Shown here: positions 1 through 53,766 of the stretch, in pieces
Position numbering within the stretch: position 1 is the stretch's first letter
Layout of the letters: every line of letters starts with the position of its first letter
Source: a virus
Virus record (IMG/VR): IMGVR_UViG_3300045125_000094
Location: 1 to 53,766 of that record
Length of the DNA stretch: 53,766 nt
Reading direction: 5' to 3' (one strand)
Notes under the pieces: generated by a model
Database searches by the model: none
What the model saw: the letters and a program-made list of their open reading frames with translations, nothing else
What the model was told of the DNA's origin: nothing
Made by a program: the position numbers and the translations under genes

Positions 1-24
1 GACAAGATCCGCGAAAAGCTTCTC

Positions 25-6853: not shown

Positions 6854-6865
6854 GTTGTCACCTCG

Positions 6866-28133: not shown

Positions 28134-28263
28134 CGCGATTCCATTCCGCGGCGAGCAGCCGGTCGAGTACCTCGTACTGACGCTCACCCGTATGCGCTGC
28201 GATTTTGCGCAGCCGGGATAACGCTTGCTGGTTAATTTTGGTTGTGATTCGCTTATTCGTCAT
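28084..28263 (-). CDS. Antisense ribbon-helix-helix protein (moron)
   Basis: 59 residues from ATG at 28263. KRITTKINQQALSRLRKIAA, HTGERQYEVLDRLLAAEW is an RHH pattern. It opposes the surrounding structural genes and overlaps the end of the peptidase gene by 50 bp. ATG overlaps the stop of another small minus-strand frame, so the two form a pair, as in toxin-antitoxin or moron cassettes. Confidence 0.55.
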   Translation of the reverse strand: MTNKRITTKINQQALSRLRKIAAHTGERQYEVLDRLLAAEWNRVKLAEAAQTPSPRSAK

Positions 28264-28402
28264 TTTTCTCCCACTCCACTTCCCATGCTTCAGAAAATTC
28301 AGACTCAGCGAACATGTCGGCAAGCCCCTGAATGCCGCTGATCTGCGTCAGTCGTAAAACCTCGTCAGGCTCCATGCCCAGCTCAACAACACACTCTCTC
28401 AA
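28253..28402 (-). CDS. Small acidic partner of the antisense RHH gene
   Basis: A minus-strand frame encodes ECVVELGMEPDEVLRLTQIS, GIQGLADMFAESEFSEAWEV, EWEKNDE. Start is uncertain (TTG 28402 or ATG 28375; no strong ribosome site). It overlaps the RHH start by 11 bp. Acidic, helical, no known family. Confidence 0.35.
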   Translation of the reverse strand: MRECVVELGMEPDEVLRLTQISGIQGLADMFAESEFSEAWEVEWEKNDE

Positions 28403-28461
28403 AATAAAATTCGCGTTCGCGCTATCGTTACATCGTGCATGAGGAATCCTTTCAATGGGCT

Positions 28462-28485
28462 GGGAGCCGGCGCTCCCCGATTTTT
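28462..28485 (+). terminator. Possible terminator before portal gene
   Basis: GGGAGC, loop CGGC, GCTCCC then CGA and five T, only 9 bp before the portal ATG. A weak 6-bp stem; it may limit read-through into the portal gene or simply be a stem near its ribosome site. Confidence 0.4.
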
Positions 28486-28493
28486 GAGAGACG

Positions 28494-29915: not shown

Positions 29916-29985
29916 AAATAAAATCGTGATATCGCCTATTCTGCATACGTACCGGGGGAACCGGGAATAACAACATCCGGGAGGG

Positions 29986-30795
29986 ATGATGCCAATAGAA
30001 CAGATCTTTGAGACGAGAGACGACGCGCCGGAGTTTCTGAGAGCCGCGCTGCTGGAGAAAGACGGGAAGTTTGTCTTTGCAGCCGAGACGGCACAGGAGA
30101 TCGGCGGACTCAAGAAAGCGCTCGACACTGAGCGTAAGCAGCGAGCGGAGGCCGAGAAGACGCTGAAGCAGTTTGAAGGCGTCGACCCTGAGAAGTACGC
30201 GGAGCTGATGAAGTCCCAGGAAGACGCGGCGGCACAGAAGCTGCGAGACTCGGGCGACTGGACGGCACGCGAGGCACAGCTGAGAGCGCAGCTTGAAGCG
30301 GATCTCAGGAAGCGCGAGACGCACTACACGGCCGAAGTGAACAGTCGCGATGCCCGGCTGGCGTTGATGCAGACGGCGCTCAACGGCGCGCTCATCAACT
30401 CGGAGGCGGTGGCCGCGATCACAGCCGCGAAGGGCGAGCCGGCGCTGCTGCTGCCGCACGTATTGCGGCAGACACGGATTACGGAGGAGGACGGGCAGTT
30501 TCGGGTGGAGGTGGTTGACGCGCAGGGACAGCCGCGCATCGCCGACATCAAGGGAACGCCTTTCTCGATCAAAAACCTGATCGAGGAGATGAAAGCCGAT
30601 CCGATTTACGGACGAGCATTTGAGGCGACTGGCGCGGGAGGCTCCGGGGCGCAAAACGGCAACAAGGCTGCCGGTAACGGCAAGAGCATTTCACGCGCCG
30701 CTTTTGATGCAATGGACCCTGCTGCGAGAGATGCAGCACATCAGGAGTGGCGGCAAAATTCACGATTAGGAGATGAATTATGGCCAATACTCTGA
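29986..30795 (+). CDS. Scaffolding protein
   Basis: About 269 residues from ATG 29986, after GGGAGGGATG. Helical and highly charged (IGGLKKALDTERKQRAEAEK, LRAQLEADLRKRETHYTAEV), with a flexible C-terminus rich in Gly/Asn/Ala. Position between portal and coat and the coiled-coil composition fit a capsid assembly scaffold. It overlaps the coat start by 16 bp. Confidence 0.8.
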   Translation: MMPIEQIFETRDDAPEFLRAALLEKDGKFVFAAETAQEIGGLKKALDTERKQRAEAEKTLKQFEGVDPEKYAELMKSQEDAAAQKLRDSGDWTAREAQLRAQLEADLRKRETHYTAEVNSRDARLALMQTALNGALINSEAVAAITAAKGEPALLLPHVLRQTRITEEDGQFRVEVVDAQGQPRIADIKGTPFSIKNLIEEMKADPIYGRAFEATGAGGSGAQNGNKAAGNGKSISRAAFDAMDPAARDAAHQEWRQNSRLGDELWPIL

Positions 30796-31946
30796 CCTCA
30801 GTCATCCCGGTAATCTACGAGGCGGCGGATATCGTCTCCCGTGAGCTTACCGGATTTATTCCCGCGGTATTCCGCAACTCGACCGCCGAGCGTGCGGCTC
30901 TCAATCAGACCGTCACCTACCCGATCGTTCCGACGATGGCGGCGGCGGACATCACTCCGGCGGCTACGTCTTCGGCCGGCACCGACATTACTGTCGGCAG
31001 CGGCTCGATGACGATCAGCAAGTCGCGCAAGGTCTCGTTCAACTGGACGGGTGAGGAGCAGACGGCGCTTGGCAATGGCGACCGTCCGCAAATTGCCAAC
31101 ATTCTGCGCGACCAGTTCGCTCAGGCGATGCGCACTCTCGTCAACGAGATCGAGGCAGATCTCTGGCGCGAGGCCTATCGCGGCTCTTCGCGTGCCTACG
31201 GTACGGCCGGAACCGCGCCATTCGGGACAGCGGCCGATCTCAGCGACTTCGCCGGCGTGCGTCAGATCCTCGACGACAACGGCGCTCCGCAGACCGATCT
31301 GCACCTTGTGATTGGGCTCGGCGGCGATGGCCAACCTGCGCGGCAAGCAGAGCGTGCTCTTCAAGGTCAACGAGGCCGGCACGGCTGACTTCCTGCGGAT
31401 GGGTACTGATCGGCGAGGTGATGGGTCTCGCGATTCACAACAGCTACCCGATCGCCGTTCACACGAAGGGCGGGGGCACGAGCTACCAGCTCAACCTCGG
31501 TGCAGGCTACGCCGTCGGCTCCACCTCGTTCGCGCTCGATACCGGAAGCGGAACGATCCTCGCTGGTGACATCCTGACCAACTCACAGGCTAGGTCGTGA
31601 CGCCAATAAGTATGTCGTCAACACGGCGCTTACTGGCGGGTCGGTTGTGATTGGCGCGCCGGGCAATCGAGTCGCGTGGGTCGACAACGACACCGTGGCG
31701 GTCGGCAACAGCTACACGCCGAACGTCGCCTTTCACCGTAACGCTGTCCACCTGATCACTCGCGCTCCGGCGATGCCGGCGGGCGGTGACAGCGCGGTCG
31801 ACGTGACTGAGATTACCGATCCGACGAGCAACCTCACCTTCCAGGTGGCGGTGTACCGTCAGTATCGGCAGATCAGCTACGAGGTCGGCGCTGCGTGGGG
31901 CGTCAAGGCGGTCAAGTCGGCGCACATCGCAACTCTCATCGGATAA
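30780..31946 (+). CDS. Major capsid protein, P22-coat-like
   Basis: About 388 residues assembled from frames broken near 31310, 31400 and 31595. ANTLTSVIPVIYEAADIVSR, VFRNSTAERAALNQTVTYPI, SKSRKVSFNWTGEEQTALGN, then AAMANLRGKQSVLFKVNE, GEVMGLAIHNSYPIAVHTKG, VAFHRNAVHLITRAPAMPAG and YEVGAAWGVKAVKSAHIATL. The pattern is that of P22 coat/HK97-fold coat proteins. At 31310 removing one G from GGGCTC restores the frame. Confidence 0.88.
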
Positions 31947-31949
31947 TCA

Positions 31950-32162
31950 ATGAAGCTGATCACGATCTTCAGGGAAGAGCCCGTCCACCCGGGCGGGCCT
32001 TCCACGATGGACATTCAGGAGCAGGATCTGGACGAGTTTCTCGCTCTCGGCTGGCGGGTGCAATCGACACCCGACGGCTGGGAGACTGAGATGTCGCCGG
32101 ACGAAACAGGAGACGATATGGGCATGAAGCCAAAACCGAAGCCGCGCAAACCGAAGTACTGA
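31950..32162 (+). CDS. Small head-module protein
   Basis: 70 residues (MKLITIFREEPVHPGG, EQDLDEFLALGWRVQS) with an acidic middle and a Lys/Pro tail (KPKPKPRKPKY). Small proteins of this type often follow coat genes. Function unknown. Confidence 0.6.
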   Translation: MKLITIFREEPVHPGGPSTMDIQEQDLDEFLALGWRVQSTPDGWETEMSPDETGDDMGMKPKPKPRKPKY

Positions 32163-32176
32163 CGCGAGGAGGCTAA

Positions 32177-32719
32177 ATGGCGATCGACGCGAGCAGCCTG
32201 ATCACGACCGTTGGCGGCGCTACCAGCAACAGCTATGTGACGTTGCAGGAGTTTGTCGACTACGCCGATCTGCGCCTGCACGTCGAAGAGTATCGCGTCG
32301 CCAATGCTGACGATCGAATCCGGGCTCTGGTGATGGCGGCGAAGCGCCTCAATCGCGAGAACTGGCTCGGGACACCGGTGTCGACGACGCAGGCTCTGGC
32401 GTGGCCTCGCTACGAGGTGCGCAAGCCTGATTACGTCCGCACCTACGGCTCGATCACAACCAGCGCGAATTACCAGTACTTCAACGACTTTTACCCGACA
32501 GACGAGATTCCTGTGATCATCAAAGAGGCGCAGTACGAGCTTGCTCTGGCGTATCTCAATGGCTTTGGGGCGGACAACGAACGAGGCATCGACCAGTTTC
32601 AGGCTGACGGGGTCTCGGTGAAGTTCAGTCCCAGGAGCGCGCAGAACGACCTGCTGCCGTCTCAGGTATCGCAGCTTATTGCGCCGCTGGTGCGAGGAAA
32701 CAGGCTGGTGCGCGGATGA
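32177..32719 (+). CDS. Head-tail connector (DnaT-like/gp6-type)
   Basis: 180 residues. YVTLQEFVDYADLRL, IRALVMAAKRLNRENWLGTP, ALAWPRYEV, EIPVIIKEAQYELALAYLNG, VSVKFSPR match the DnaT-like connector proteins placed after phage coat genes, which form the adaptor ring below the portal. Overlaps the next gene by 4 bp. Confidence 0.78.
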   Translation: MAIDASSLITTVGGATSNSYVTLQEFVDYADLRLHVEEYRVANADDRIRALVMAAKRLNRENWLGTPVSTTQALAWPRYEVRKPDYVRTYGSITTSANYQYFNDFYPTDEIPVIIKEAQYELALAYLNGFGADNERGIDQFQADGVSVKFSPRSAQNDLLPSQVSQLIAPLVRGNRLVRG

Positions 32720-33093
32720 GATCCTTGCTTGATGTGCGTACGCTGAATCAAATGCGTCGGACATTGTACGGACAATCAGCCTCGCTGACGTTCTACAAAA
32801 TGACTCCGGCGACAGGCGAAACGCCGGTGCTGGAGTTGACGAGCGGCTGGCACGCGCAGCGCAATGACCGCAAGTCGAGCGCGGCACGGGCGCTCACGAT
32901 CTGGGTAGCGTCAGCGGCGACCGAGGCGGATCTGGACTCGGATCTGCACACCGGAGCAAAGGTGACGATCATCTGCGGCGGACGCACGCAGTCTTATCGC
33001 ATCAACGGCATTCTGCCAATGGCGCAAATCGGCGCAGGGTGGGTGCTCGAATGCGACCCGGCGGAGACCAGTACGGATCCTGACAATGGCTGA
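32716..33093 (+). CDS. Head-closure/stopper candidate
   Basis: 125 residues, beta-rich (ASLTFYKMTPATGETPVLEL, AKVTIICGGRTQSYRINGIL). Position between the adaptor and the gp10-like neck protein suggests the head-closure protein. Sequence alone does not decide. Confidence 0.5.
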   Translation: MRSLLDVRTLNQMRRTLYGQSASLTFYKMTPATGETPVLELTSGWHAQRNDRKSSAARALTIWVASAATEADLDSDLHTGAKVTIICGGRTQSYRINGILPMAQIGAGWVLECDPAETSTDPDNG

Positions 33094-33496
33094 CAATACT
33101 CTGACAATCGACGTTGAAGTGGATCCCGGGCTGGTCGAGACAGTCACAGGGCAGGTGTCACCGATTCTGCAACGGCTGGTGATCGGCATTGTGCAGCATG
33201 CGAAGCTGGCAATGGCGCAGCCTAAAACAGGGCGCGCATACAGAGTAGGGCGCAATCGGATCCATATAGCGTCAGCCCCGGGAGAGGCGCCGGCAGTGGA
33301 TACAGGCTTTCTCACCAACTCGATCAATTGGCAGATCGTTGACCCGCTCAATGCGCAGGTGACGATCGCGGCCGAGTACGCGCCATATCTGGAGTTCGGG
33401 ACAAGGCGAATGTTGCGCCGGCCTTACGTTGAGCCGGCGATCAACGACTCGCTGAGACGCAATGGCATTCTGGCGAACGTGAGGGTGACGCGATGA
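33086..33496 (+). CDS. Neck protein, HK97 gp10-like
   Basis: 136 residues. Helix (LQRLVIGIVQHAKLAMAQPK), then APGEAPAVDTGFLTNSINWQ and EYAPYLEFGTRRMLRRPYVE: the VDTG-L and E-YAPYLE-GT-R--RP-- signature of HK97-gp10/tail-completion proteins. Overlaps both neighbours. Confidence 0.82.
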   Translation: MADNTLTIDVEVDPGLVETVTGQVSPILQRLVIGIVQHAKLAMAQPKTGRAYRVGRNRIHIASAPGEAPAVDTGFLTNSINWQIVDPLNAQVTIAAEYAPYLEFGTRRMLRRPYVEPAINDSLRRNGILANVRVTR

Positions 33497-33948
33497 CCTA
33501 CACCGACGCGCAGGTGCGCACGGCCATCGAGACAGTCATACAGACGGCGGCTCCGCTGGCGGTGGTCTATCCGTGGTGGGTGCTTGGCGCGAAACAGGAC
33601 ATCTGGCCGGGCCTCGTCAGATCCGCCTCGGACGGCAATCGCGCTCACGGCTATGTCTTCACCCGGTCGCGAGACGAGGGTATCGAGAAGGCTATGCGCT
33701 GTGTCGATCATTTGTGGACGTACGATCTGATGGGCTTCCACTACTACTCGACCGGCACGAAGGCAGCCAACACGGACCTGACGTTCAATGCCGAGCTGGA
33801 CGCGATCGCTGCCGCTTTTGACGATGTCGCATCACTGCCGGCCGCGCTCAAACGACGCCAGCCGCTGCAATGGAACGTCGATCTTAATGTTTACGGGGGC
33901 GAACTACTGCATTTCGCCGTCGGCTCACTCACGATTGAAGCGTGTTAG
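33493..33948 (+). CDS. Tail terminator candidate
   Basis: 151 residues; overlaps the previous gene by 4 bp. Alpha/beta pattern (VRTAIETVIQTAAPLAVVYP, TFNAELDAIAAAFDDVASLP, HFAVGSLTIEAC) and position before the tube protein fit a lambda gpU-type tail terminator. Confidence 0.6.
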   Translation: MTYTDAQVRTAIETVIQTAAPLAVVYPWWVLGAKQDIWPGLVRSASDGNRAHGYVFTRSRDEGIEKAMRCVDHLWTYDLMGFHYYSTGTKAANTDLTFNAELDAIAAAFDDVASLPAALKRRQPLQWNVDLNVYGGELLHFAVGSLTIEAC

Positions 33949-33958
33949 GAGGTGATCA

Positions 33959-35035
33959 ATGCCGCAGTATCTGATAAATGACGTCGCCCTCTACGTCAGC
34001 AAAACCAAAGAGGAAGCTACAACGCCGCCATCACGGGCGGCTCGAACTACGCGAAGATTCGCACGCAGCAGCCGGCCTACGTGTTGCCACAAATCGAGTT
34101 TATCAACGACGCCGGAGTGCCGGGCAACGGTCACGAGTTCGCGACTACCTGGTGCGAGACATATCTGTCGCAACCGGCGTTCAGCTTCAGCGATGATATT
34201 AACTTCGGCATTGCGGGCCGACTGGCGCTGCGAGCTCTGGGCGGGTCAGTGACGACGGCGCAGCAGGGTGGCACGACCGCCTACAAACACTCGTGCAATA
34301 TGCTCCCCGTTGCCAGTGGTCGCCAGCTGCCATCGTTCGCGATGGCTGCCGAGCTGGGCGGGGCGAGCTACCTGATGAACGGTATGGTGGTCGAGCGGTT
34401 CCGCATCAGTCAGAATCGCGCGGATCGGCCTCAGTACTCCGCCGACATTGTCGGCTCAGGCAAGTTCACGACACCGCACGGGCTGACCTCGCTGCCGTCG
34501 TCAATGGATCTCGCCAGCTGCCTCAACGGCAACGCGAGCGAGGTCTACTGGACGAGACTCCAGCGGGACGACGACCTTTTCCGGCGCGAGCTGCACGCTT
34601 CGGTCGTGGTTTGTCGAGGTCTCGAACAACCTGCGACTCAACGACCGCTGTCCGGGTGACAGCACTCAGGCGCTGACCTACAACTCGACAACGACCAACC
34701 CTGCCTACGTCGGCAAGATCCTGCGCGGCAATCGCGTCGTGACAGCGCAGATTCAGATTCTGCTCGACTCGACCGTGGTGCCGTGGGAGCGCTACGTCAC
34801 CGGACAGGAGTTGACGAGCGTGACATTCAAGGCGCAGAGCAGCGCCGAGGCCGGCACGGCCTACAAGTACACTGTCAACTACATCATCCCGAAGGCGCGG
34901 ATTCAGTCGGTCGAGCCGGCGGAGAACGACGGCGACGCGGCGCTGACGATTAATCTCGTGGGAATGTACGACAGCGTCAGTGGCGGCGCTCTCAAGGCCG
35001 AGGTCATCAATCAGGAGACGACGGCTTATGCCTAA
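33959..35035 (+). CDS. Major tail (tube) protein
   Basis: About 355 residues in three frame pieces (breaks near 34015-34035 and 34560-34600). PQYLINDVALYVSKTKEEA, PAYVLPQIEFINDAGVPGNG, FGIAGRLALRALGGSVTTAQ, AYKHSCNMLPVASGRQLPSF, then VTAQIQILLDSTVVPWERYV and VGMYDSVSGGALKAEVINQE. Beta-rich, located between tail terminator and tail chaperones, as tube proteins are. Confidence 0.75.
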
Positions 35036-35234
35036 ACGTGATTTCACCGAGGAGCCAACAGTCGAGGTCACGCCGGGCGCGAAGCCCGACTTCGACTTCA
35101 CGATCGAGGTTGAGGTGATGGACTCGCTGACACGTGAGGCCTATTACCGGGTGCAGCGGATCGCGATCCTGCGCGGCGACGCGTCGCTTCTTCCTGACGG
35201 CAAAACGATGAGTCGTGAGGAGGTCGGGCGATGA
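35028..35234 (+). CDS. Small tail-module protein
   Basis: 68 residues from ATG at 35028, overlapping the tube stop by 8 bp. Acidic, beta then helix (FDFTIEVEVMDSLTREAYYR, VQRIAILRGDASLLPDGKT). Function unknown. Confidence 0.6.
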   Translation: MPKRDFTEEPTVEVTPGAKPDFDFTIEVEVMDSLTREAYYRVQRIAILRGDASLLPDGKTMSREEVGR

Positions 35235-35504
35235 TCGGCAGCGAGATTGGCGACATGAAGGTGGCGCGTGCGTGTTGTTCATAAACTGCGGCTGTTTGCG
35301 AGGGCGCTTTGGTCGCTGAGACTTGGCGACACGACGCTCAACGTGCAGCGAGCGCGAATGACGGTCTGCGAGTCGTGCGTGTTTATGCAGCGAACGGCTC
35401 GCAATTACTTTTGCACTGAATGCGGATGCCCGGAGTCAATGCTCTCGGATCTGCGAACCAAGACACGAATGCGGGGCACATCGTGCCCTCGCGGCAAGTG
35501 GTGA
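35231..35504 (+). CDS. Cysteine-rich zinc-binding-like protein, probably frame-broken
   Basis: ATG at 35231 overlaps the previous stop (MIGSEIGDMKVARA); one frame change near 35265-35275 joins it to VVHKLRLFARALWSLRLGDT, VCESCVFMQRTARNYFCTEC, GCPES, SCPRGKW. Six cysteines in CxxC-like pairs suggest zinc or metal binding. Without the change the second part starts from GTG at 35268. Role unknown. Confidence 0.5.
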
Positions 35505-35513
35505 GGAGGACCA

Positions 35514-36259
35514 TGAGCGAACTTTACCCATTCGACCCTGAATTTATCGAGGTCAGTTTTAATGCGATGCCTGGGGCGGACGAGCCTGTCATCGTCGCGC
35601 ACAAGCTGCGAAAGCCGACAGTGGCGCAGCTGCTGGAGCGCGAAAAAGGCGTACAGGTGACGATCCGCGAGCTGACGCCGCGCGAGGAGCACATCGAGGT
35701 CACTGAGGAGGCGGCGAACATCGCCCTCTGGAACGACATCATTGTCGCCGTCAAGGGTTATCGCGACAAACCGGAATGGACGCCTCTCGATGACAGCGAA
35801 AAGCAGATGATGCGCGCGGCGCACAAGGTCGCGGCGATCCGGGCGATGTACACGGGCGCGGTCTCGGTGGTTGGCGGGGAGAGCGAGGTCAGTATTGGCG
35901 GCGACGAGTGGACGATCCGCCAGACGATCGGGCCCGATCCGGACAGTCCGCGCTTTACGATCGATCATATTCTGCGAGAACCGAGCGAGTCAGAGCGCGC
36001 CGCGTTTCGCAAACGCGCGTCGAAGGTCAGCTTCGTGCGAGGGTCACGGCGACCGCAGACGCGAATCTCGGTGGATCTCGGTGCCTACATTCAGTTGTAT
36101 GACTCGCTGATCATCGACGTGCAGGGCGCGACGGTGGGCGGTGAGCCGTTCTTCCCGGAGGGCGCGCGCGCGGCATTTATCGCGGCGATCGATCCAACAT
36201 GGAAGCGGCAGGTGGTGCAGAAGCTGATGGACGCGATTGAGGCCGCACTGCTGGACTGA
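35514..36259 (+). CDS. Tail assembly chaperone candidate (G-like)
   Basis: 248 residues. AHKLRKPTVAQLLEREKGVQ, ALWNDIIVAVKGYRDKPEWT, then an all-helical C-terminus. Position between tube and tape-measure genes is that of the G/GT chaperones. The following frame (36268) is open upstream through the end of this gene, so a fused product by frameshift is possible, but I find no clear slippery heptamer. Confidence 0.6.
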
Positions 36260-36267
36260 TCAACGGC

Positions 36268-36657
36268 TTGGAACGGTATTTCGATGCGCAGATCCAAGCC
36301 GCAAGACGAGTCGGATCTCAGCCCTGCCCGGGCGAGGAGATATGTCAACAGATCGGCCCGCTGGCGCAGTATGCGAATCAGCCAGTCGAAGAGGTGTGCG
36401 GCGGCTGCTCGAAGCGTGACACGAAGCCCGGGCAGCAGCCGCGCGCAATCTCAGACGCGATCGCGGAGGCGCTGACGCTCGACGAACTGAGAGGCGTTGG
36501 CGCGACCTTTGCTTATCCTGACGGGCTGTCGGTCTATCAGTGGACCTGCCTGAAGGCGCTGGAGAGATCAAGGCATCGCGAAAAGGAGAAGCAGGCGGCA
36601 CAGCAGCAGGCGTCAGCAGAGCAGGCACGGTTGCAGGCGCGAATGGGCGGGAGGTAG
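36268..36657 (+). CDS. Tail assembly chaperone candidate (T-like)
   Basis: 129 residues with TTG as the only near start (36268), 9 bp after the previous stop. Two Cys pairs (PCPGEEIC, CGGC) in the first half, TFAYPDGLSVYQWTC in the middle, a Gln/Ala/Arg helical tail. A weak start and its place just before the tape measure suggest expression by ribosomal slippage or coupling. Confidence 0.5.
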   Translation: MERYFDAQIQAARRVGSQPCPGEEICQQIGPLAQYANQPVEEVCGGCSKRDTKPGQQPRAISDAIAEALTLDELRGVGATFAYPDGLSVYQWTCLKALERSRHREKEKQAAQQQASAEQARLQARMGGR

Positions 36658-36660
36658 TCA

Positions 36661-39600
36661 ATGGCAAGCGGCAGCGGCATCACACTCAACTTGCAGCTCA
36701 ATACTTCTCAAATCCGCAGCGCTGCTAACAGTGCGGCACGGGACATCGAAGGGGCGCTTGATGGAGCGGGAAATGCGGCAGAGCGCACGGGCCGACGCAT
36801 TCGTAACGGGCTCACCGGACCGCTCATCGATGCCGCGCGTCAGGCGGCCAGCGCCTTCAGCAGCGCTGGACAGAAACTGACGATCGGTCTCAGTCTTCCG
36901 CTCGCCGGTCTCGGCGCGGCTGCGCTCAAGGCAGCGGCGGATATCGACAAATCGCGACAGACGCTCGCGGCGCTGACAGGTTCGGTGGATGCTGCGAATC
37001 GCAAGCTGACCGAGCTGCGACAGCTGGCGCAGACGAGCCCGGGTGTCACTACAGCATTCGCCGCGGATCTCTTTGCTCAATTTAAGGCGGTTGGCGGCAT
37101 TGCCGATCAGACGATCAATCGCGTTATTCAATCAATCGGGCGGCTCAACTCGGTCTTTACACTGCAAGATCCAAAGCAGTTTGCGCGAAATATTCAACAG
37201 ATCTTTACGCAGGGCTTTGAGCGTGCCGACATTAAAGAGGCGCTCGGGCAGGTGCCGATCTTCGAGCAGCTGCTGGAGCAGGCATTCGGGACGAAGGACG
37301 CAGCCAAACTGCGAGCGCTCAAGGAGGCCGGCAAGCTGACGATCAATCAGTTTGTGGACGGGCTGAGCACGGCGATAACGACGGATCCGCGATTCGCGAA
37401 CGTGCAGGAGTCAATCCTGTCGCGATTCCAGAAGACAAAGGACGAGATCCTTGTCGCGCTCGCGCCGCTCGGTGAGTCGATCCTGCGAACACTGACGCCA
37501 GTACTGGAGCGAGTCATCCCCAAGGTGCTGGAGATGCTCGACGCCTTCGTCGAAGCTGCCGCCGGGCGTGCAGGAGGCGATTGTTATGTTTGGATTACTG
37601 GCTCTCGCACTAGGCCCTGTATTGTCAGGCGTTGGCAACCTGATCGAGCTGTTCGCGCTCGCTCGCTGGTTTGATTAGTGGCGCTCGCGGTTTAGCGCCA
37701 GCGCTGAGCTGGCCTTGGTCCCGTTCTTGGCGGTATTGGTCTGGCTGCTCGTCGGTGGCGCGATTCTCTGGTACGAGTACGGGCAAGCAGTCGACAAGGT
37801 AACGGCGCAAGCCGATTTAGCGCTGCGTCGGCAGCGTGAGGCGACAGGCGAATTTCGCGACCTGCAAGGGAATCGTGTCACAAGGTTCGGAGGGCGATTC
37901 ATCGACGCGCAGGAAGTGCAGACTCGTCAATTCTTGGGACGCAATAACGCGCTGTCGGTGAATTTTAATCAGATCGACCCTCTCACAGGTCAGACAAAAG
38001 GCGCAGCGGTCAAAAATCTTGTTGTCTCCGGCAATGAATCCAAGTCAACCACGCAAACGATTACCGAAGTCGACCGGTTGCGCGAGCGGCTGAAAGAACT
38101 CAATCGCGAAATCAAAGTTCTGGGCGACGCGAATAGTCAGGAGTTCAAGCTGCGCATTCAGGTCGACGAAGCCGAGGAGACGCGCAAGATCCTGCAAGAG
38201 CTGATCGATCTGCGGAGAGAGCTGCTGCTGCCACTGGACGCGCCGATCACCAACGCGCGCAGAGAGCTGGAGACGCTTAAGCGCGCACAGGAGGGCTCAA
38301 GCGCACACCACCGGTGGCGGTACTGGCAGGCGGCGATCTGCGAGGGCCGGGGCTCTCCGCGCTCGATACTCCGCCCGCTCCTGTGGCGACAAACGTCGAG
38401 CGACAGGCCGCGGCGACGCTGGAAATCCGGCGACAGCAGGCGGCTGTCGAGAACGCGATAAATCAGGGATTACTGACCCGGGCCGAAGGGCAGCAGCAAC
38501 TCAACGCGCTGTTGCGACAGGAGTCGGAACTGCGAATTGCCGCCCTACAGGCGGAGCGGGAGCGACCGGGGATCACGATCGATCAGATCGCGCAGATTGA
38601 TCTGGAGATCGAGCGACTCAAAACGCTCGGCGTCGAGCTGACGGCGGCGCAGCGATTTATGCGCGGGTTCGGGTCGGAGGTTGAGTCGACGGGAGACGCG
38701 TTTGAGCGACTCGGACAGAATATCAGCCGATCGTTCGCCAACGTCAAAGGACTGCTCGACAACCTCAAGCAGTCGTTCCTGACGTTCTTTCGCGATCTGC
38801 TCGGGCAGGGCTTGCAGCGCGTCTTCGGTCAGCTCTTTGGCGCGATCACGGGCGCGATTGGTGGCGGCGGGCGGGCCTCTGGTGGCATTTTGGGTGGCGG
38901 TGGCGGCGGTGGTATAGGCGGCGCGATCACGGGCGGTCTGGGGGCAATCTTTGGCGGAGGTGGCGGAGGTGGACTTGGCGCGTTCCTGACGCCAGGTTTC
39001 GGCGGAGGTTTTCCTGCGATCGGCGCAGGTCTCGGAGCCGCAGCAACTCTCGGGACGCTCGGCGGATTACCGATCGCCAACACTTCAGCGATAGGGGCGG
39101 CGGGAGCAGCCGGGATCTTTGGCCGGACGGCGACAACAGCAGGCGCGGCTGTTGGTCTCGCCGGACTCTTTCGCGGCATTGGCTTCGGGCGAGCGGCCGG
39201 CACGGGGGCGCGTTCGCCGCTCTCGCCCCGCTGCTCGGCGTTCAGCTCGGCGCGGGCCTCGGTGGTCGGTCGCGTCTCGGTCAGATCCTTGGCGGTGTGG
39301 GCGGCGCGGCTCTTGGCATAGGTCTTACGGCTGCCCCGGCGGCGCTGGCAGCTGGCGGCGCTCTGGCCGGATCGCTCGGTTTTCTCGCACCGCTATTCTC
39401 GAATCCGATCACCGCGGTGGTCGGCGCGGCGCTGCTGGCCGGATCTCTCCTCCTGGGACGAGCCCGGCAGCGCCGCAGTGACGAAGAGCAATCTGGCGTC
39501 TGGTTGCAGGACGCCATCAATCAGGTGATGTCGCTCAAATCGTCAGCCGCCGCGGGACAGGTGACAGTTGATCAGGCACGATCCATCTTCGAGGGACAGA

Positions 39601-40148
39601 TCCTTGCCACGTTCATTGCGCAGATCAATACGCTCAAGACAAAGTCGGTGCGCGAGTCGCGTCTGACAAATCAGGTGCGGGATCTTCGCAATCTCTTCGA
39701 CTCTCAGGTGGTTCCGGCGGCGGCGGGCGCAGCAAAGCGCGGCTCGATCGCGAATCTGATTCCTGAGTTTGCCACAGGTGGCGTCGTGCGGGGCATTGAT
39801 CGCGGCTATGACTCAGTGATGGCCTACGTGCGGCCGGGAGAGATGGTACTGACGCGAGATCAGCAGTCGACCATTCAGCGAACAGCCGGCTACGACGTCT
39901 TCGCCCGGGCGGGAGTGCCTGACGCGCCACAGTCGCAGGTTGGCGGAGCGCCGGCGTTCGCCTCGGGCGGGGTTATGCCAATGCGGGGGATCGCGCCGGA
40001 CGAGCCGATTCAGATCGATCTTGCGGTCAACCTGGCGATCGGTCGACAGGAAGCGGGACAGATTGTCAGCGTCGGCGCTGCCACGGGCACAGGACGCCGC
40101 GTTGTCGTCAACCAGGTGCGCAAAGCGCGTCTTGATCGGGAGCTGTAA
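36661..40148 (+). CDS. Tape measure protein
   Basis: About 1160 residues in five frame pieces (breaks near 37555, 37675-37715, 38300 and 39200). N-terminal helical repeats (LTELRQLAQTSPGVTTAFAA, FADLFAQFKAVGG-like), a long coiled coil (LRERLKELNREIKVLGDANS), then Gly/Ala-rich hydrophobic stretches (GGGRASGGILGGGGGGGIGG; LAALAPLLGVQLGAGLGG) and a C-terminal FATGGVVRGIDRGYDSVMAY, VRPGEMVLTRDQ segment typical of tape measures. It sets tail length and is ejected with DNA. Confidence 0.88.
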
Positions 40149-43100
40149 TGCCACGCACAGTCTATAGCGCCAATTACACCACGCTGGCGGCCAGTACGAC
40201 GCAGATCCCGACCGTGATCGACGCGATCATTCTGACCTCACCGGATGGCGGGACAGTCTACAGGTGGGCGACAGCTTCCACGAGCTACCGCCTGACTTCG
40301 CCGAACACATACTCTTCGCGACTGCGCAGGGTCGGCGCGCTGACAATGTCGCTCAATGGCGGCTTTGGGCGCGTGTCATTCGTGCTGACAAACGCGGATC
40401 TCGACGAGTCGGAGCGCGTAGCGGCGACGCCTGACAAATACATCGGCTACAGCGTCGACTACACAAAGATCCTGCAAGGAACGATTGGCGGTAATCCGGC
40501 TGAAGCGGGAGTGCAGATGCTGGCCGGGATTGTCACGGGCTATAAGCTCGACGAGTCCGGTATTGAGCTTGACGTGGTCACGGAGGCCAGCAGATCACCG
40601 GTGCTCAGCAATCGTCGCGTCGGCAGCAAATGTCCGTGGGTCTTCAAAGGTACAGAGTGCGGCTACTCCGGCGGCCAGACCACGTGCAATAAGCTCTACA
40701 ACGATGCTGGCGGGTGCAGTGGTCGCAGCAATCAGCATCGCTTCGGCGGTTTTCCGAGTCGCGCGGAGATCGCTTCCCTTGGGACGGTTTCGGGCCTTGG
40801 CGCGCCACCTGCCTACCAGGTTATTACCGACGGCGCGTCGACGTTCAAACAGCAGGCGTACCTAAAGTTTCCGGACGCGACGATTCTCAACGATGACGCC
40901 AATTCCGCGACGGTGATTAAGGAGATCAGCGGCGGCGCGGTCAGCAGCGTCTTCAATAGCGTGATCAACGTCAGAGATGACGCCTATGGCGCGGTCGGCG
41001 ACAACGTCACCAATGACACCACCGCGATTCAGGGCGCGATTGACGCAGCGCAGACAGCTGGCGGAGGATATGTCTATCTGCCGCCGGGAACGTATCGGAT
41101 TACCAGCACTCTCGACTTCGGGCCGACTCAGATTGGACTGATCGGGGCGGGACCGGGCGTTACCATCATTCAGATGGCGACCAACAATATCCCGATCATT
41201 GAGATTACCGGCTATTCGGCCAACAACCTGCGCATCGAGAATTTGACGCTTCAGGGGCCGGGCCCGAACAGCGGCTCAAACGGTCACGGGATTTACGTTC
41301 ACGACAACAACTACGAGATCCCGCATTTCTGGCTCGACAATATTCAGGTATTGGACTGCGGCGGTCACGGGATCTACGTCACAGCGCACTTCACCAACGA
41401 GTACAGTCGAGTCCTTGTCTCCAACTGCGGCCGCAACGCCTTCGATCTGGCCGGCAACAATACGATCAAGCTCCGCTCCTGCTATGCCGACGACATCAAC
41501 AACAACGGTGTTGGCTACCGCATTCATGGCGGCCAGCTTTTTATGGACAACTGCAACGGGCTGGACTCGCTCGGCGCGACGACGGACTGGGCAGTCTTTG
41601 GTGACTCAACGTCGGACGGGGACGCGATTGACAGCTACTGTCGCGCGCAGTTGACCAATTGCAACATCGAATCGTTCAAGCGCTACGGCGTCAGAGCCAA
41701 AGTGGGCTCCGTGGTCAGCTTCAACAGCTGCTCCTTCACGACTTCGACCAGCGGCTCACATATCGCGTTCAAGTCTGACTATACAGGCGACGCGCCCGGA
41801 ACGATGACGACGTGTCGCTTCGATCAGCAGGGGACAGGCACCTGGGCGAACGGCTATCCGATCCACGGCTTTGACAGGCCGCTGCTGCTGCTCGGCACGC
41901 GGGCCAATGGCGGCACCTCCTTCACCGCGACAAAGTACTGGAACGATTCAGGCGGTGTCGCTGGTCGATTGCCGGCCGCCAGCGTCGAGCACTTCCTATC
42001 GCAGCCGCTCAACGTCAAGGCTGATTATGGGTGCCTGGGTGACGACACAGACGAGACCTCGAAGATTCAGGCGGCAATTAACGACGCGCAGGCGGCCGGT
42101 GGCGGCGTGGTCTTCTTCCCGAAAGGCACCTATCGTGTCACCGGGCTGACCGTCTCGGGTCGCGTCTATCTCGTCGGAGAGACGACGCATCAGACGACAA
42201 TCAAGAGCGTCAGTAACGCTGTGATCATCAACTGCTCAGCGACGGACAGCTGGATGCCCCGTGTCCGCAATCTCCGGATCTACGGCAGCGGCTCCGGCTC
42301 CTCGCAGATCGGTCTCAAGGTTGACGACGGCGTGTATGGAGCCTTTGCTGAGGTCTCGGACGTGCTGATTGAAAATTGCGGCGCGGCCGGGCTTTACATC
42401 GGCAACGCCTTCTCGTCGCAGTTCGCGCGGATCTACTCGACCAACAACGCCGGCGGCAACTATGTCGTCAACGCACCTGATATGCCAGCGCTAACCCTCG
42501 ATCATTGCGACAGCGGCGTGATTCACAGCTCCTACCGCACCGGGTATCACGTCCGGGCGGGGGACGTAGTGATGCGCGACTGTAACAGTGTGTATGGTGG
42601 CACAAATCCCGAATGGGCGGTCACAATTGGTCGCCGCGTGGGCCGCTACGGTGAGACGGTCGCCAACGGCTCAGCGTCGGTACGCTTCGAGGGTGCAATT
42701 TCGAGTCAACGACCGTAGGCGGTGTCGAGTGCCTGTTCAACAGTCGCGCCTCATTCAGCGGGTGCACGTGGGTCGGCAGCGGGTCCTCCTCCGGCTCGTA
42801 CAAGGCGGTGCTATACGACGTTTGTCAGATCAACCCGACCGAGACAACTGGCAGTATTACAAGCGGAACGGCCTCGCTGGTGGTGGCGAACGCCGCGACC
42901 TGGTCGGCTGGTCAGGGAATTAAGGTTGCAGGCGCTGGCGCGAGTGGCGCGGCGCTGACAACGACGGTGTCGTCGATTGTCGGCACCACGCTGACCCTTG
43001 CGGCCAATGCCGGAACAACAGTCTCCAGCGCGGTGGTCAGTCACACAGACGACATCTTCTACCCGGCGACTCAGGCGCGGCTCGGGCTGGTTGATGACGA

Positions 43101-44541
43101 CTGTCTGTTCTCGCAGTCGCCTGACACCTACTACGCCAACAGCGAGCCGGTGCACATCACCAGCTACCCGACGACACCGGCCAGCGCCAGTATTCCGCCC
43201 CTCGCTGTCAATGGTCGCGGACCAAAGATCGCCGGCGATAAGTTCATCTCGGCGTTCTACAACGATACGACCAGTCAGACTCGCCCTCTGCCACGGATGG
43301 ACGGCTTTCTCCCCGTGCAGACGATTACCGCCAGCACGACCTATGACGGGCCGGGTGTCCGCTATATCGAGTGCAATCACAGCGCGCCGATCACGATCAC
43401 TTTGCCGTGGCCGGGCTGGATGCTCAATACCGCCAACGAACCGATCATCATCAAGGATCGGTCAAGTTCCGGCGCGTCCGCCAACTCGATCACCATCGCA
43501 GCCGGCAGTGGAGCTACGGTCAACGGATCTACCTACACGATCAACACCGACAAGGGCGCGGTGATGCTGATTCCGCGATCCGACAACGACTATCGCGTTG
43601 TTGCTGCCTATACAGGCGCGGCAGGCAATGTTACCGGGCCGGCCTCCGCGACCAGCACGGCCATTGCGAAGTTTGACGGTACGACAGGAAAGATCCTGCA
43701 AAACAGCGGCGTTACGATTGACGGCAGCAATAACCTGACAACCGCCGGCAATATTCAGGCGGCGAGAGTCACGGCGACCAGCGAGCTGGTCTCCGGCGAC
43801 GGCTATTTCAGCGGGTACTTCTCGTCGTCCTCCGGCGCGCCCACGATCGCTTATAGACGCGGACGTGGCAGCAGCAGCAGTCCGTCGGCAGTGCAGAGCA
43901 ACGACGTGCTCTACTACCTGTCGCAGAGTGGCTACAACGGCTCCGGCTGGGTCGTTGGTGCTTATATGTACGCAACAGCGACAGAGAACTGGAGCGGGTC
44001 GGCCAATGGCGCGAATGTCACCCTGACAGCCTGTCCGAACGGCTCCACGGACGGGTTCGCGAAGGGCGTCAGGCTCGACCCGACAAACGCCAGCTTTGAG
44101 CCAATCGCGGACGCTTCGATGGATCTCGGCCGCTCATCGTTTCGTTATCGCGACGGACGGTTTAGCCGCGACATTCATCTGGGTCGTCAGGTGCAATCGG
44201 GCGGATCCGCGCTGTCCTCGTCGACCAGTACGGGCGCGGGGACGTCGCCAACCGTGGTGATTAATGGTAACGGCATCGCCGGATCGATCTCGCTGACAAC
44301 CGGCACATCTCCGGCCACAAGCGCCAGGATCATCGAGTTGACGATGGCGGCCTCGTTCACAACTAATCCGGTGGTGATCATTACGCCAGCCAATGCGGCC
44401 GCGGCTGCGCTCTCCGGCAATAAGCAGGTGTACGTCGACGACGCTGCTGTGCTGGCAAACAAGTGGTCACTCAAGAGCGGATCGACAGCACTCGACGCCA
44501 GTACAGCATATGTCTGGTACTTCCATGTGATCGGCGTATGA
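40148..44541 (+). CDS. Tail-tip protein fused to double beta-helix spike
   Basis: About 1463 residues, one frame change near 42710. Residues 1-210 resemble the lambda gpL/DUF2163 tail-tip protein, including a cysteine cluster (KCPWVFKGTECGYSG, TTCNK, GGCSGR, HRFGGFP) like the Fe-S site of gpL. Two pectate-lyase-type beta-helix entries follow: DDAYGAVGDNVTNDTTAIQG with AGGGYVYLPPGTYRI (about residue 280) and ADYGCLGDDTDETSKIQAAI with AGGGVVFFPKGTYRVTG (about 625). The C-terminus (after 42808) is fibre-like. Probably receptor or capsule binding or depolymerising, held directly in the tail tip. Confidence 0.8.
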
Positions 44542-45942
44542 ACAATTTCGGAGACAGCTCAAATCTCGACTACTCGCCCGACGGTTATGGGCGCGACGGC
44601 AGTGGTGGCGTCCTCGACGGTGGCGGTGGTGGCGTGGACACTGGCGGGGGTGGCAGCGGCGGCGGTGGTGGCGGTGGCGCTGGCGGGCCGGCGAGCGCTC
44701 CGTCAACGGCCGTTATGGCGGATCTCCAGCTGGACGAGGGCGGCAATCTGGTTGTCGCGTATGGGCAGCACCTGGTTGCCGGCCATCTGATCGAGTATGA
44801 CTACACGGTCGGGCCGCCGCCGTCGCTCAAGTTTATCGCAGCGCTCGGAGAGGGTCCGTGGGACAGCGTCGTCAAGGCCTACTACGCAGGTGAGGAGATC
44901 TCCGCGTCGGCAACAGCGCGACGCCGGGTTACAAATTCCACCCAGGCACGTTCTCGACCGGCACGAGCGATGCCAATCAGGGAACGCCACAGTTCTTTGC
45001 CACGTCGCCGACCTACTCCGGCACGGCCTATGCTGAGGTTCTGCTCAGCACGACGCAGTCGGTCGAAGAGCGCCCGGACAAGTTTCGCGGTGTCTTTCAT
45101 TGCCTCAAAGTGGCAAACTACAACAGCTCCGGCAGCGTCACCGATAGCGGCAGCTACAGCGCCAACCCGGCACGAGTCGCGGCGGATCTGCTTAAGAGGG
45201 CAGGGCTGCTCTCGCTGATCGACTGGTCGTCGTGGGTCAGCTGGCGCGACTACTGCGACGCCACAATTTCGTGGGGCACGCGTACGATACCGCGATTCCA
45301 GTGTCACCTCGCGCTGACCAATCCGATCGACCTGATCGGCGCGCTGACGCAGGTGACGCAGGCCAGCTGCACCTTCTGGCAGGACACCGGCACTACGATT
45401 AAGTTTCTGCTGCCAATCGTCTCATCGTCGCTGACCAATGGTAACGAGCAGATCACCTTCACTGAGTCAAATTGTCGCAACGTCACACTGGTCGCCAACG
45501 ATCGACGCGCGCTGCCGACCGGCTACATCGCACGGTTCCGCGATCTTGACGATGAGTATATGGGCGAGGTGACGGTCGAGGTCTTCAGTGATACTCTTGA
45601 AACCAATACCGGCGGACAGAATCGCGTCGAGTTCGGACTGCCGCCAATGACGCGCAGTCAGGCGGAGCGGGTCTGCAACTGGCGACTCCAGCTCGACGGA
45701 GTCTATAACACCGACGTCGAGGTTATTGGCTACGGCAGCGCCTCGGCGATCGTTCCCGGCGACCTGGTGAAGATCGATCACGAGGTTCTGCAAAACAACA
45801 ACTCGCCCGTGTCGTGGCTCTTTGTCACAGAGGCCGAGGATATCCCCTGATGAGAGCGGGCCTTCGCTGCGACGCGTGCGTGGACGCATTTTGACCGCCG
45901 GGCTCTACAGCGACACCGCGCATACTGTGCCGCTGTCATAGG
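44538..45942 (+). CDS. J-like tail hub/baseplate protein
   Basis: About 468 residues with frame changes near 44925 and 45845. Starts with a Gly-rich linker (GGGGSGGGGGGGAGG), then YYAGEEISA, YKFHPGTFSTGTSDANQGTP, FRGVFHCLKVANYNSSGSVT, ARVAADLLKRAG, and a C-terminus with MTRSQAERVCNWRLQLDGVY and LVKIDHEV. After the second break SPDESGPSLRRVRGRILTAG continues to TAG at 45940. The pattern matches the central hub part of lambda J-type proteins; ATG overlaps the previous stop. Confidence 0.75.
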
Positions 45943-45949
45943 AGACGCT

Positions 45950-46288
45950 ATGCCGAATCAGTCACTGCCATATCAACCGAGCTATGTAATCTCGGGCCAG
46001 CAGCTGCAAAATGTTGTGGTCGATTTTGCTGACGACAGGACTCGCTACGGGCGCAAAAAGGGCGGGAGATATTTCGAGTACGATCTGACGTTCCGCAATC
46101 GCCAACTGGCTGAGTTTCAGGCGTTTCAGACGTTCTGGCAGAATCATTACCCGGCGACAGCCTTTGACTGGGTGGAGCCGTATCAGAACGTCACGCACAC
46201 CTGCTACTTTATTTCGCCACTCTCCTACGAGATCAATTTCGAGGGCGCGATTGATTACAGGGTGAGAATACAGTCAACTGCGGCGTGA
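45950..46288 (+). CDS. Minor tail protein
   Basis: 112 residues. LQNVVVDFADDRTRYGRKKG, EYDLTFRNRQLAEFQAFQTF, FDWVEPYQNVTHTCYFISPL, YEINFEGAIDYRVRI is the pattern of small tail-tip proteins related to DUF2460/gpM-like proteins. Last gene of the late rightward operon, 8 bp after the hub gene. Confidence 0.7.
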   Translation: MPNQSLPYQPSYVISGQQLQNVVVDFADDRTRYGRKKGGRYFEYDLTFRNRQLAEFQAFQTFWQNHYPATAFDWVEPYQNVTHTCYFISPLSYEINFEGAIDYRVRIQSTAA

Positions 46289-50713: not shown

Positions 50714-50923
50714 ATGGGCATCATAAACACTCAGGCAGCGGCTAAGCGACTTGGAATCAGCGCGATAACACTGCGGCTCTATATCCGTCAGGGTCGCATC
50801 AAGGCGGTCAGGCTCGGCCGTGACTACGTCATCGAGGAGGCGGATCTGGCTCCGCTGCTCGTTCGACCAAGGGCCGGGCGTCCTCGCAAAGGGAAGGGTA
50901 GCGACGAGACGCCCGGAGGCTGA
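50714..50923 (+). CDS. Excisionase-family HTH (MerR-like) protein
   Basis: 69 residues from ATG at 50714 after GGAGG. INTQAAAKRLGISAITLRLY, IRQGRIKAVRLGRDYVIEEA, DLAPLL is the MerR/excisionase-type winged HTH, with a basic tail (RPRAGRPRKGKG). It is the only rightward gene in this region and ends one base before the clamp stop. It could be the regulator of the adjoining divergent promoters or an excisionase. Confidence 0.78.
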   Translation: MGIINTQAAAKRLGISAITLRLYIRQGRIKAVRLGRDYVIEEADLAPLLVRPRAGRPRKGKGSDETPGG

Positions 50924-52067
50924 TCATGCTCGCATCGGCATGACGATGTATGTGGCGCTGACAGCGCTGGCCGCGATTGGCGCGAAGGCGTGAAATCGCA
51001 GCATATCTCCTTCTGCCTCGCAGGCCAAGAAGCGCGTCGTCCTCGATCAGCGCCAGCCCGTCCAGCAGATACTTTGCGTTGACGCCGACAGGTCATCTCG
51101 ATGTCGCTGTCGACGTCGATGATGCTCGTGCGGCGTCGCCGCTCTCGGTTGACGCCGAGACGCTGATCCGATTCGGTTGCAGCGCCAGCCGTAGTCCGTG
51201 AGACAGATGGTCCGCCATCAGCGCCACCCGCTGAGCCGCTGTCGCCAGCTGGCGCGCCGGGAATCGCAGCAGCCGCGTCGGCTCCTGGTTGAGACAGTCG
51301 CGTCGACGTTCGGGAACTGTCCTGGCGAGCAGTCGTGTCACCAGCACGCGCGAGGTCTTGTTTGTTCTGACGACCAGCCGGCCATCCCGTGTCAGCTGCT
51401 CGATTCTCACCAGATCTGTCGCGGTATCGATCAGGCGCGCAATCTCCGCCAATGCTTTGCGCGGCACCAGCACATCCATTGCGATATCGGGGGCAATCGC
51501 CGGCTGGTCTGGCGTGACAACGGCCTGTGACATTCGATGACCGTCGGTGGCGACCAGTCGCAGGCGTCCGTTCTTCGCTTCGAGCTTCGCGCCGTTGAGC
51601 GTGTAGCGAGACTCTTCCTCGGCTGATGGCGCACTGGACGTGACTGATCATCTCGCGCAGGATCTGCCCGGGCACCTCGACCACGGTCGACTCTGTCTTC
51701 AGATTCGGCATCTCCGGAAACGAATCAGGGTCGGTCGTCGCCAGCACGAATCGCGATTTCTGACAGGTAATCGTGGCGCGCTGCTCCGTGACTTCGATGG
51801 TGATCTCGGCCTCCGGCAGCGCCTTCACGATCTCCAGCAGTCGCTTGACAGGCAGACAGGCGGCGCCTGGTGCCACCACCTCGACTGTCAGCGGCGTCGA
51901 GAGCCAAATATCGAGATCTGTTGCGCGCAGCGTCACGATCTGAGGGCAGGGCACCGCGTCAAGGTGCACGTTGGCCAGTATGGGCAGCGATGGCTTTCTT
52001 CTCGGCCACCGAAGCCAGCGCGTGTCAGCTCGCGCAATAGTCCGGCACGGATCGCGATAATCTTCAT
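50924..52067 (-). CDS. dnaN: DNA polymerase III beta-like sliding clamp
   Basis: About 380 residues from ATG at 52067 (after GAAAGGAC), with frame changes near 52000, 51620, 51095 and 50990. Clamp signatures: LPILANVHLDAV, ATDLDIWLS, CLPVKRLLEIVKALPEAEIT, KSRFVLATTDPDSFPEMP, LRLVATDGHRMS, VPRKALAEIARLI, and the C-terminal ATYIVMPMR typical of DnaN. The ring tethers replicative polymerase. Phage-encoded DnaN is uncommon without a polymerase; host polymerase III may be recruited to it. Confidence 0.88.
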
Positions 52068-52078
52068 TTGCGTCCTTT

Positions 52079-52302
52079 CTATCTGAATGTTGGATTGAAA
52101 TTTGATTGCTGACAAACTCACCGCGCTCGTCGCAGATTCGCCACTGGTTGATGTTGCGCAGGCGTCGTACTCTCAGCGACTGTTCGTTGATTGTAACCTC
52201 AGCGTACGTAACACCATCAATCTCGACCTGATTGTGGACAGGCCGCTCAATGATTGTGCGACGATCAGTCGTCAGATCGATCTGAATTGATTGTTTTGGC
52301 AT
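52079..52302 (-). CDS. Small hypothetical protein, one frame break
   Basis: ATG at 52302. PKQSIQIDLTTDRRTIIERP, QVEIDGVTYAEVTINEQSLR, VRRLRNINQWRICDERGEF; a frame change near 52110 would end it at TAG 52079, just before the clamp's ribosome site. About 74 residues, beta-rich. Function unknown. Confidence 0.5.
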
Positions 52303-52303
52303 C

Positions 52304-53001
52304 TCAGATCCTCGCCGTGACGATTTCTGACTGGTTCTGGTACTTGCCATCCCTGTCAGCGTAGGACGTAATGCAGGGCACCTGTGACGCAAAGAACTGT
52401 ACCTGCGCGATTCCTTCGCCGGCGTACACGCGCATGGGCAGCTCAGTCGCGTTCTTCAGCTCAATCACCAGCCGTCCGCGCCAGCCAGCTTCGAGCGGCG
52501 TCGTGTTGACGATCAGGCCGCACCGGGCATACGTCGATTTGCCGACGCAGACTCCGCAGACATTCACGGGGCAGATCGAACGTCTCGACCGTCAGGCCGA
52601 GAGCGTAGGCGTTCGGGTCAAGGGTGTAATAGGCGGAGCCGTTGGCAGCTCCGGGTCACGTCGAGATGGTGCAGCAGAGCTGACGTCGAACTCGTGCGGG
52701 TCGATCGTCGCGGTCATACTGCCAGACCGGCACTGAGACCATGACCGTCAAAATCACTTGCCCATTTGTGCTCCTGCTGAACAAAGACCCGCAGCCCCTC
52801 GTCGCTGAGCCGCACGTCGTAGCCGTGACTGCTGAGGCCGTAGCTGATCACCGACCGATGGCGGAATGGTGCGTCAGCCGCTGCGAGCTGGCGAATCTGC
52901 CGTGCGACAAACGGCTCGATAATCGGGTGCTGTTCGCGCAGCGAGCAGAGCTGATCGTCGGACAGTATCCCGACAGGGAGGGGTCGTTCATATTGCGGCA
53001 C
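52304..53001 (-). CDS. dcd: dCTP deaminase / dUTPase-family enzyme
   Basis: About 232 residues with frame changes between 52565 and 52720. [30 protein letters not shown], then [71 protein letters not shown] and DRDGKYQNQ are the ordered motifs of dCTP deaminase, converting dCTP to dUTP (or directly to dUMP). Start GTG at 53001 is tentative. It works with tmk in thymidylate supply. Confidence 0.9.
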
Positions 53002-53010
53002 CTTTCTGGT

Positions 53011-53100
53011 TAAATTGCACCAATTTGGTATATCTGGTGCGTCTGATAATAGGTATTATGTTGTTTTGGTATCAATTATACCACTTTGGTATCACTGGTC
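53011..53100 (-). promoter_or_regulatory. Second operator cluster and leftward promoter
   Basis: Contains the same words as 7185-7318: TGGTATCA at 53067 and 53087 (20 bp apart, the reverse complement of TGATACCA), GCACCA at 53017 and TGGTGC at 53035 flanking TTTGGTATA. On the minus strand a consensus -10, TATAAT, lies between two TGATACCA copies, with GCTGAC 17 bp upstream. It overlaps the 3' end of tmk and would drive dcd and later genes. Confidence 0.7.
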
Positions 53101-53675
53101 AGCAGGTGCAGCACGGTCGTCATGATGGTCGCGTGAACCTCTTCGACCGTGCCGTTACCGTCGGCCATCGCCATCGGCTCCGCGGTGTGACCGCTGACGA
53201 AGATCTCCCAGTAGCCCTGATGCACCCGACGCAGGTAATCGAGCTGGTCGTCGCTGACGGTCTCGCCGCGCTGCTCCAGCCGCTGCTTCGCCACCAGCGG
53301 GTCAGCGTACAGCCACACGTGCAGGGAGACCGGCAGATCCGATGTCGCGATCCGATTCAGCCGTCGCACGATTGACAGCTCGACGCCGCCGGCGTAGCCC
53401 TGATAGGCCATTGTTGACAGCGTGTAGCGATCGCACAGCACGATCTTTCCGGCATCGAGGGCCGGCCGAATGACCTTGTTTGTGTGCTCGTAGCGGTTGA
53501 CGGCGATCTTGCACGCGACCACGCCCGGCGGATCGTCCGGGGCGATCTCCATCTCCCAGGGCTCTGCCGTCGTCACTACACGATGACCGGCAGCCGTCAG
53601 CGCCTCCGCAGCCATTCGCAGCTGCGTCGACTTGCCGACGCCGTCGATTCCTTCAAATACGATCAGTTTACTCAA
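53076..53675 (-). CDS. tmk: Thymidylate kinase
   Basis: 199 residues from TTG at 53675 after GAAAGGATCG. FEGIDGVGKSTQ is the P-loop, TTAEPWEM the dTMP-side segment, CDRYTLSTMAYQG the DRY motif, RLEQRGE the LID-type segment. Phosphorylates dTMP to dTDP. It follows the leader-distal end of the CRISPR array on the same strand, so array transcription could read into it. Confidence 0.93.
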   Translation of the reverse strand: MSKLIVFEGIDGVGKSTQLRMAAEALTAAGHRVVTTAEPWEMEIAPDDPPGVVACKIAVNRYEHTNKVIRPALDAGKIVLCDRYTLSTMAYQGYAGGVELSIVRRLNRIATSDLPVSLHVWLYADPLVAKQRLEQRGETVSDDQLDYLRRVHQGYWEIFVSGHTAEPMAMADGNGTVEEVHATIMTTVLHLLTSDTKVV

Positions 53676-53691
53676 GCGATCCTTTCTGGTG

Positions 53692-53720
53692 ATTGAACAT
53701 CAATTGAACACCAATTGAAC
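53692..53720. repeat. Three ATTGAAC repeats, 11-bp phased
   Basis: ATTGAAC starts at 53692, 53703 and 53714, each flanked by CA/CC so that the core CAATTG appears twice. They lie between the tmk ribosome site and the terminal CRISPR repeat and overlap it by 4 bp. Exact 11-bp phasing suggests a protein-binding site on one DNA face. Confidence 0.6.
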
Positions 53721-53766
53721 TTAAGGCATCTCCTTTGTTCATCTATTGCTACTCCGACTTGTTTCA
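53717..53766 (-). CRISPR. Degenerate terminal repeat and start of wrapped spacer
   Basis: Bases 53717-53752 match the CRISPR repeat except in the stem (GAACTTAAGG for GTTTCAAAGG, and TTTGTTC for TTTGAAC). The GAAC and GTTC changes can still pair with each other. A degenerate repeat marks the leader-distal end of an array. Bases 53753-53766 plus 1-24 make a 38-bp spacer if the molecule is circular, which fits the 33-39 bp of the other spacers. The last six bases happen to equal the first six of a repeat; a repeat starting there would leave only an 8-bp spacer. Confidence 0.85.

Follow-up and report, generated by a model that had tools for sequence, protein, structure and literature searches.

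Type V-M CRISPR systems (Cas12m, formerly V-U1) pair a compact effector of about 500 residues with an array beside its gene. Reports of them come mainly from plasmids, with some from prophages (PMC11656645). Characterised Cas12m proteins with a D-E-D, H-D-D or N-D-D triad bind double-stranded DNA and do not cleave it (PMC11013384). In the Cas12m crRNA, bases -22 to -17 pair with bases -8 to -3, and the C at position -1 is recognised (PMC10442227). Here we analyse an IMG/VR viral record of 53,766 nucleotides, the window, which has a locus of this kind at its left end and a single degenerate repeat at its right end. The locus is a phage-borne CRISPR-Cas12m system (type V-M-like), a known kind of system. 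The record itself is very probably the map of a temperate tailed phage, close to complete and closing into a circle, that was opened within the phage's own Cas12m array.

The cas12m-like effector gene lies at 817..2345 on the minus strand, the same strand as the array in its minus reading. The gap between its end and the first repeat is 21 bases. The profile of Cas12u1, the former name of Cas12m, covers residues 214-305 and 371-529 of the 533-residue product. For the C-terminal half the Cas12f profile is slightly better than Cas12u1, and a Cas12f1-like TNB domain is present. In the PDB, only a Cas12m chain matches (23vw_A, E 1e-7). The RuvC D, E and D residues are all present by motif (DLGWR, WEDD and QDQDLNAA), giving a canonical D-E-D triad, whereas the best studied Cas12m2 has H-D-D. 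No Cas1 was found. The compact effector of about 500 residues, the adjoining array, the lack of a detected Cas1, the best matches of the C-terminal half to Cas12u1/Cas12f profiles and, in the PDB, to Cas12m only, and a 36-nt repeat that has a hairpin close to its 3' end and finishes in C all resemble type V-M, and the effector is probably of subtype V-M (Cas12m). The system differs from described V-M loci in its carrier, a phage and not a plasmid or chromosome, in its broken reading frame and in being only remotely similar. Searches with peptide patterns recovered no close Cas12m relatives in IMG/VR or in GTDB genomes. The frame is broken twice in this record, at about 1610 and 1450, and conserved capsid genes are broken too; the cas12m breaks are probably sequencing errors. 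The cas12m region also resembles cargo of lower GC (0.50 in the first 2 kb).

The array occupies 25..795 and is read on the minus strand. It comprises 11 canonical 36-nt repeats, starting at 25, 99, 172, 247, 316, 388, 462, 537, 612, 687 and 760, and 10 complete spacers of 33-39 nt. The repeats are regular and the spacers are unique and of similar length, as expected of a CRISPR array. Read on the minus strand, the canonical repeat is GTAGCAATAGATGTTCAAAGGARATGCCTTTGAAAC. It forms an 8-bp hairpin (-8.5 kcal/mol) two bases from its 3' end and finishes in GAAAC after the hairpin, as in type V repeats; the hairpin close to the spacer and the terminal C also resemble the described Cas12m crRNA (PMC10442227). 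The repeats are not uniform along the array: GGAAATG is found in the five copies closest to cas12m and GGAGATG in the next six, one of which has GGAGATA. Taken by itself, the left-end array lacks a degenerate end.

The repeat had no match in IMG/VR or in GTDB genomes, and a 16-nt part of it gave 32 matches that were all single and chance-like and were rejected. No RNA families were found. One spacer aligned to Rhodobacter phage RcTitan (E 0.07), but the alignment was gapped and ran 7 nt into the repeat, and it was rejected. Another match, to TripleJ (E 0.8), was at chance level and was likewise dropped.

The degenerate end missing from the left is found at the other end of the window. A terminal repeat at 53717..53752, on the same strand as the 11 canonical repeats, agrees with the canonical sequence at 29/36 positions. 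The best 36-mer outside the array anywhere in the window reaches 21/36 on the plus strand and 20/36 on the minus strand; the degenerate repeat is therefore not a chance match. In the minus orientation its 3' end is decayed, with CCTTAAGTTC in place of CCTTTGAAAC. Leader-distal CRISPR repeats are usually decayed at the 3' end. In addition, the degenerate copy is of the GGAGATG variant, with G at the R position as in the six nearest repeats, its would-be neighbours in the left-end array. Given the gradient of variants along the array, it therefore belongs beside the left-end copies. Judged from these sequence features, the degenerate repeat provides the missing distal end of the left-end array. 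The array thus crosses the window ends, as the original prediction had claimed, with all its repeats in one orientation.

Could the degenerate repeat have been kept for a purpose of its own? It lies directly upstream of the thymidylate kinase gene, beside tandem TTCAATTGRTG motifs, and its changes from GTTC to GAAC and from GAAAC to GTTC restore GAAC/GTTC pairing. We find it highly doubtful that the copy is retained as an RNA element, for processing or regulation, that couples transcription of the array to the nucleotide-metabolism operon. Between the degenerate repeat and tmk, at 53680-53716, there are tandem ATTGAACAYCA-like motifs that are partly repeat-like and may be an operator.

Beyond the degenerate repeat, 14 nt remain at the right end (53753..53766), and 24 nt precede the first canonical repeat at the left end (1..24), both parts being read on the minus strand. 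Joined, they form a spacer of 38 nt, within the 33-39 nt of the other ten, as had been proposed, and the predicted count of 12 repeats and 11 spacers holds once the ends are joined, if they abut. The array that breaks off at one end resumes at the other, with a joined spacer of 38 nt and with agreement in repeat polarity and variant. The arithmetic by itself is weak evidence for closure. If each end lands in a spacer independently of the other, a sum of 33-39 nt has a probability of about 0.17; by random phase the probability is 0.095. Repeat polarity and the variant pattern are stronger evidence than the spacer-length sum.

A circular map does not oblige the two ends to meet exactly. The last 6 nt of the window, GTTTCA, are identical to the first 6 nt of the repeat, a detail absent from the original prediction, and the chance of such a tail in this genome is 1.9e-4; one or more repeat-spacer units could therefore be missing. 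On this reading, the degenerate repeat would be followed at the right end by a spacer cut short at 8 nt (TCCGACTT) and by the GTTTCA of a further repeat, and one or more units, or a longer stretch, would be absent between the ends. Arrays are common assembly breakpoints, and a 38-nt sum arises by chance in 9-17% of cases. Only about 1.6% of random cuts would land in the array, a figure that leaves room for an assembly break at the repeats. Against missing units, an 8-nt spacer is far outside the 33-39 nt range, the plain join yields a normal 38-nt spacer with no extra assumption, and the GTTTCA coincidence was spotted afterwards, among several that were possible. We regard missing units as possible but rather unlikely; as a sub-case of the circular map, this reading shares its probability with the closed map instead of competing with it. 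Because an 8-nt spacer is unlikely and the GTTTCA match was noticed after the fact, exact abutment is the likely arrangement, by our judgement about twice as probable or better. The proposal of a closed molecule cut inside a spacer is thus well supported as to closure and less secure as to the exact meeting of the ends, where GTTTCA leaves room for further units.

Searches for independent traces of the joined spacer gave negative results. No protospacer across the join was found in GenBank phages, nor, as an exact 18-mer, in IMG/VR. Three wobble-codon matches were rejected, since only 18-20 of 38 nt agree. No contig spanning the join was found, and the two window ends have no direct terminal repeat in common.

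Closure also brings order to the gene map. When the ends are joined, the minus-strand genes form a single block, from 46.5k to 7.2k, and the plus-strand genes form another, from 7.5k to 46.5k. At the right end, the minus genes encode a kinase-like protein, a Gam-like protein, a DNA polymerase processivity factor (beta clamp, 50824..52392, with orthologues in the related contigs G039, G040, G044 and G050), a dCTP deaminase in a broken frame (52304..53001) and thymidylate kinase (tmk, 53076..53675), the last gene before the end. At the left end are cas12m, a small gene (2369-2701) with homologues in other viral contigs, the gene at 3831-4628 and an integrase. Both tmk and cas12m lie on the minus strand, so that gene order does stay on one strand across the join, in line with the original prediction. 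The plus block holds helicase and primase genes and a packaging and structural block (24672..46288) with terminase, portal (28494-29915), scaffold, a P22-type coat protein spread over three frames (30780-31943) and tail genes.

We compared this layout with same-group viral contigs found through the portal protein; relatives found through the primase were too distant for gene-order comparison and were discarded. In G044 (50,050 bases) and G050 (60,420 bases; IMGVR_UViG_3300042549_004702), the structural block shows about 40-94% protein identity to the window. G044 has clamp, dcd, recombinase, tmk and the genes after them in one uninterrupted run (36.8-46.2k of the reversed record). In G050 their orthologues are split between both contig ends (55.3-60.4k and 1.0-5.7k), so that the same gene blocks are permuted between the two relatives. 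The two ends of G050 share a 138-bp overlap with 98.6% identity (L158:1-138 and L161:283-420). G050 is therefore a closed map, and the block in which it was cut is also the one cut in the window. Thus, the group has a circular map, and closure of the window is expected. G050 resembles the window in its structural block, its two-block layout and the position of its contig ends inside the minus block; it differs in keeping the 138-bp end overlap, which the window lacks, and in having no CRISPR locus. An exact-match terminal-repeat test would miss the imperfect overlap of G050. No CRISPR array is present in G044 or G050, and the Cas12m locus is absent from the relatives examined, these two included. 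The window integrase has only 25% identity to the recombinase of the relatives.

These comparisons bear on whether the window is instead a linear fragment with unrelated end breaks, from which a stretch of phage DNA longer than an array is missing. The window has no end overlap, and the group includes other phages of up to 60 kb. However, both ends lie in the same array, the gene set for head, tail, packaging and replication is full, and the minus block is contiguous in relatives, which makes a fragment of this kind quite improbable. The window and G039 both end near tmk, and a fixed genome terminus there was considered. It was set aside because G040 shares most of G039 but has its end elsewhere, and because G050 closes on itself.

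The phage also carries a probable attachment site. A tyrosine integrase region spans 5748..6859 on the minus strand (PF00589, E 5e-20), with the C-terminal part at 5748-6614 and frame changes upstream. Nearby, the 3' half of a tRNA-Pro gene lies at 4881..4924 on the same strand; a whole tRNA was not found there. Within it, the 42-nt stretch at 4881-4922 shows 93% identity to the site in tRNA-Pro(TGG) that is annotated as the attachment site of Paracoccus phage vB_PyeM_Pyei1. By this likeness the half gene is probably attP, with the 42-nt stretch as its core. In both phages a tyrosine integrase lies next to the attachment site, a probable one in the window, and this site is in the 3' part of tRNA-Pro; they differ otherwise in that only the 42-nt stretch matches within the part of the window searched (1-20000). 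The attP-like core suggests that the host has a matching tRNA-Pro.

Half a tRNA-Pro gene is also what would be seen at attR. The left 4.9 kb might then be host chromosome beside attR, and the right-end repeat an unrelated solitary phage unit of the RNA anti-CRISPR type. The lower GC of the first 2 kb (0.50) would fit host DNA, and viral single repeat units exist (PMC11656645). However, the gene at 3831-4628, on the other side of the attP core from the integrase, is a phage gene with 47% identity to its orthologue in G050. Phage genes thus flank the attP core on both sides; the window is therefore neither a prophage cut at att nor a phage with an array-bearing host flank. The homologues of 2369-2701 in other viral contigs also speak against host DNA. 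In polarity and variant the right-end repeat matches the distal end that the array lacks, and the residual stretches sum to a spacer. An RNA anti-CRISPR would be an isolated repeat with no adjacent array, whereas this repeat adjoins the array once the ends are joined. We consider a host flank extremely unlikely.

The record is less secure as a finished sequence than as a map. Terminase, portal, coat, tail, replication and integration genes are all present, in support of a near-complete map. When aligned to relatives, however, the window shows 18 frame-switch sites in 27 kb, several of them in the coat gene, against 1 to 4 in each of four relatives by the same test; a few sites are shadows of overlapping frames, but the excess is still clear. 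The frameshifts at 30780-31943 and at about 15 other sites are not at obvious homopolymers. The excess suggests uncorrected indel errors in a long-read sequence, and "complete" should therefore not be read as "finished". Of the proposed circular complete genome, the circular map is well supported, mostly by evidence beyond that of the original prediction: repeat polarity, variants, the attP core and two relatives; "complete" is too strong for a sequence with over a dozen apparent frameshifts. A circular map need not imply that the DNA in the particle is circular; it can also mean circularly permuted linear virion DNA or an intracellular circle.

In the closed map that we favour, the assembler would have opened the circle inside the last spacer, or within one array unit. 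The minus-strand order would then run from integrase through attP, small genes, cas12m, 11 repeats and the degenerate repeat to tmk, dCTP deaminase and clamp. The array is probably transcribed together with cas12m, and the effector would process the transcript into crRNAs. It would bind matching DNA of competing elements and, as described for Cas12m, block them, likely by preventing their transcription or replication. We infer both this function and the exact abutment of the two ends.

Closure makes the array countable: provided that the ends abut, it has 12 repeats and 11 spacers. Closure also assigns the Cas12m locus to the phage and not to contaminating host DNA. The locus then looks like cargo between the integration genes and the nucleotide-metabolism genes, and the other sampled members of the group are without it. 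Closure itself is biologically ordinary; a well-placed example of a V-M system on a phage is useful.
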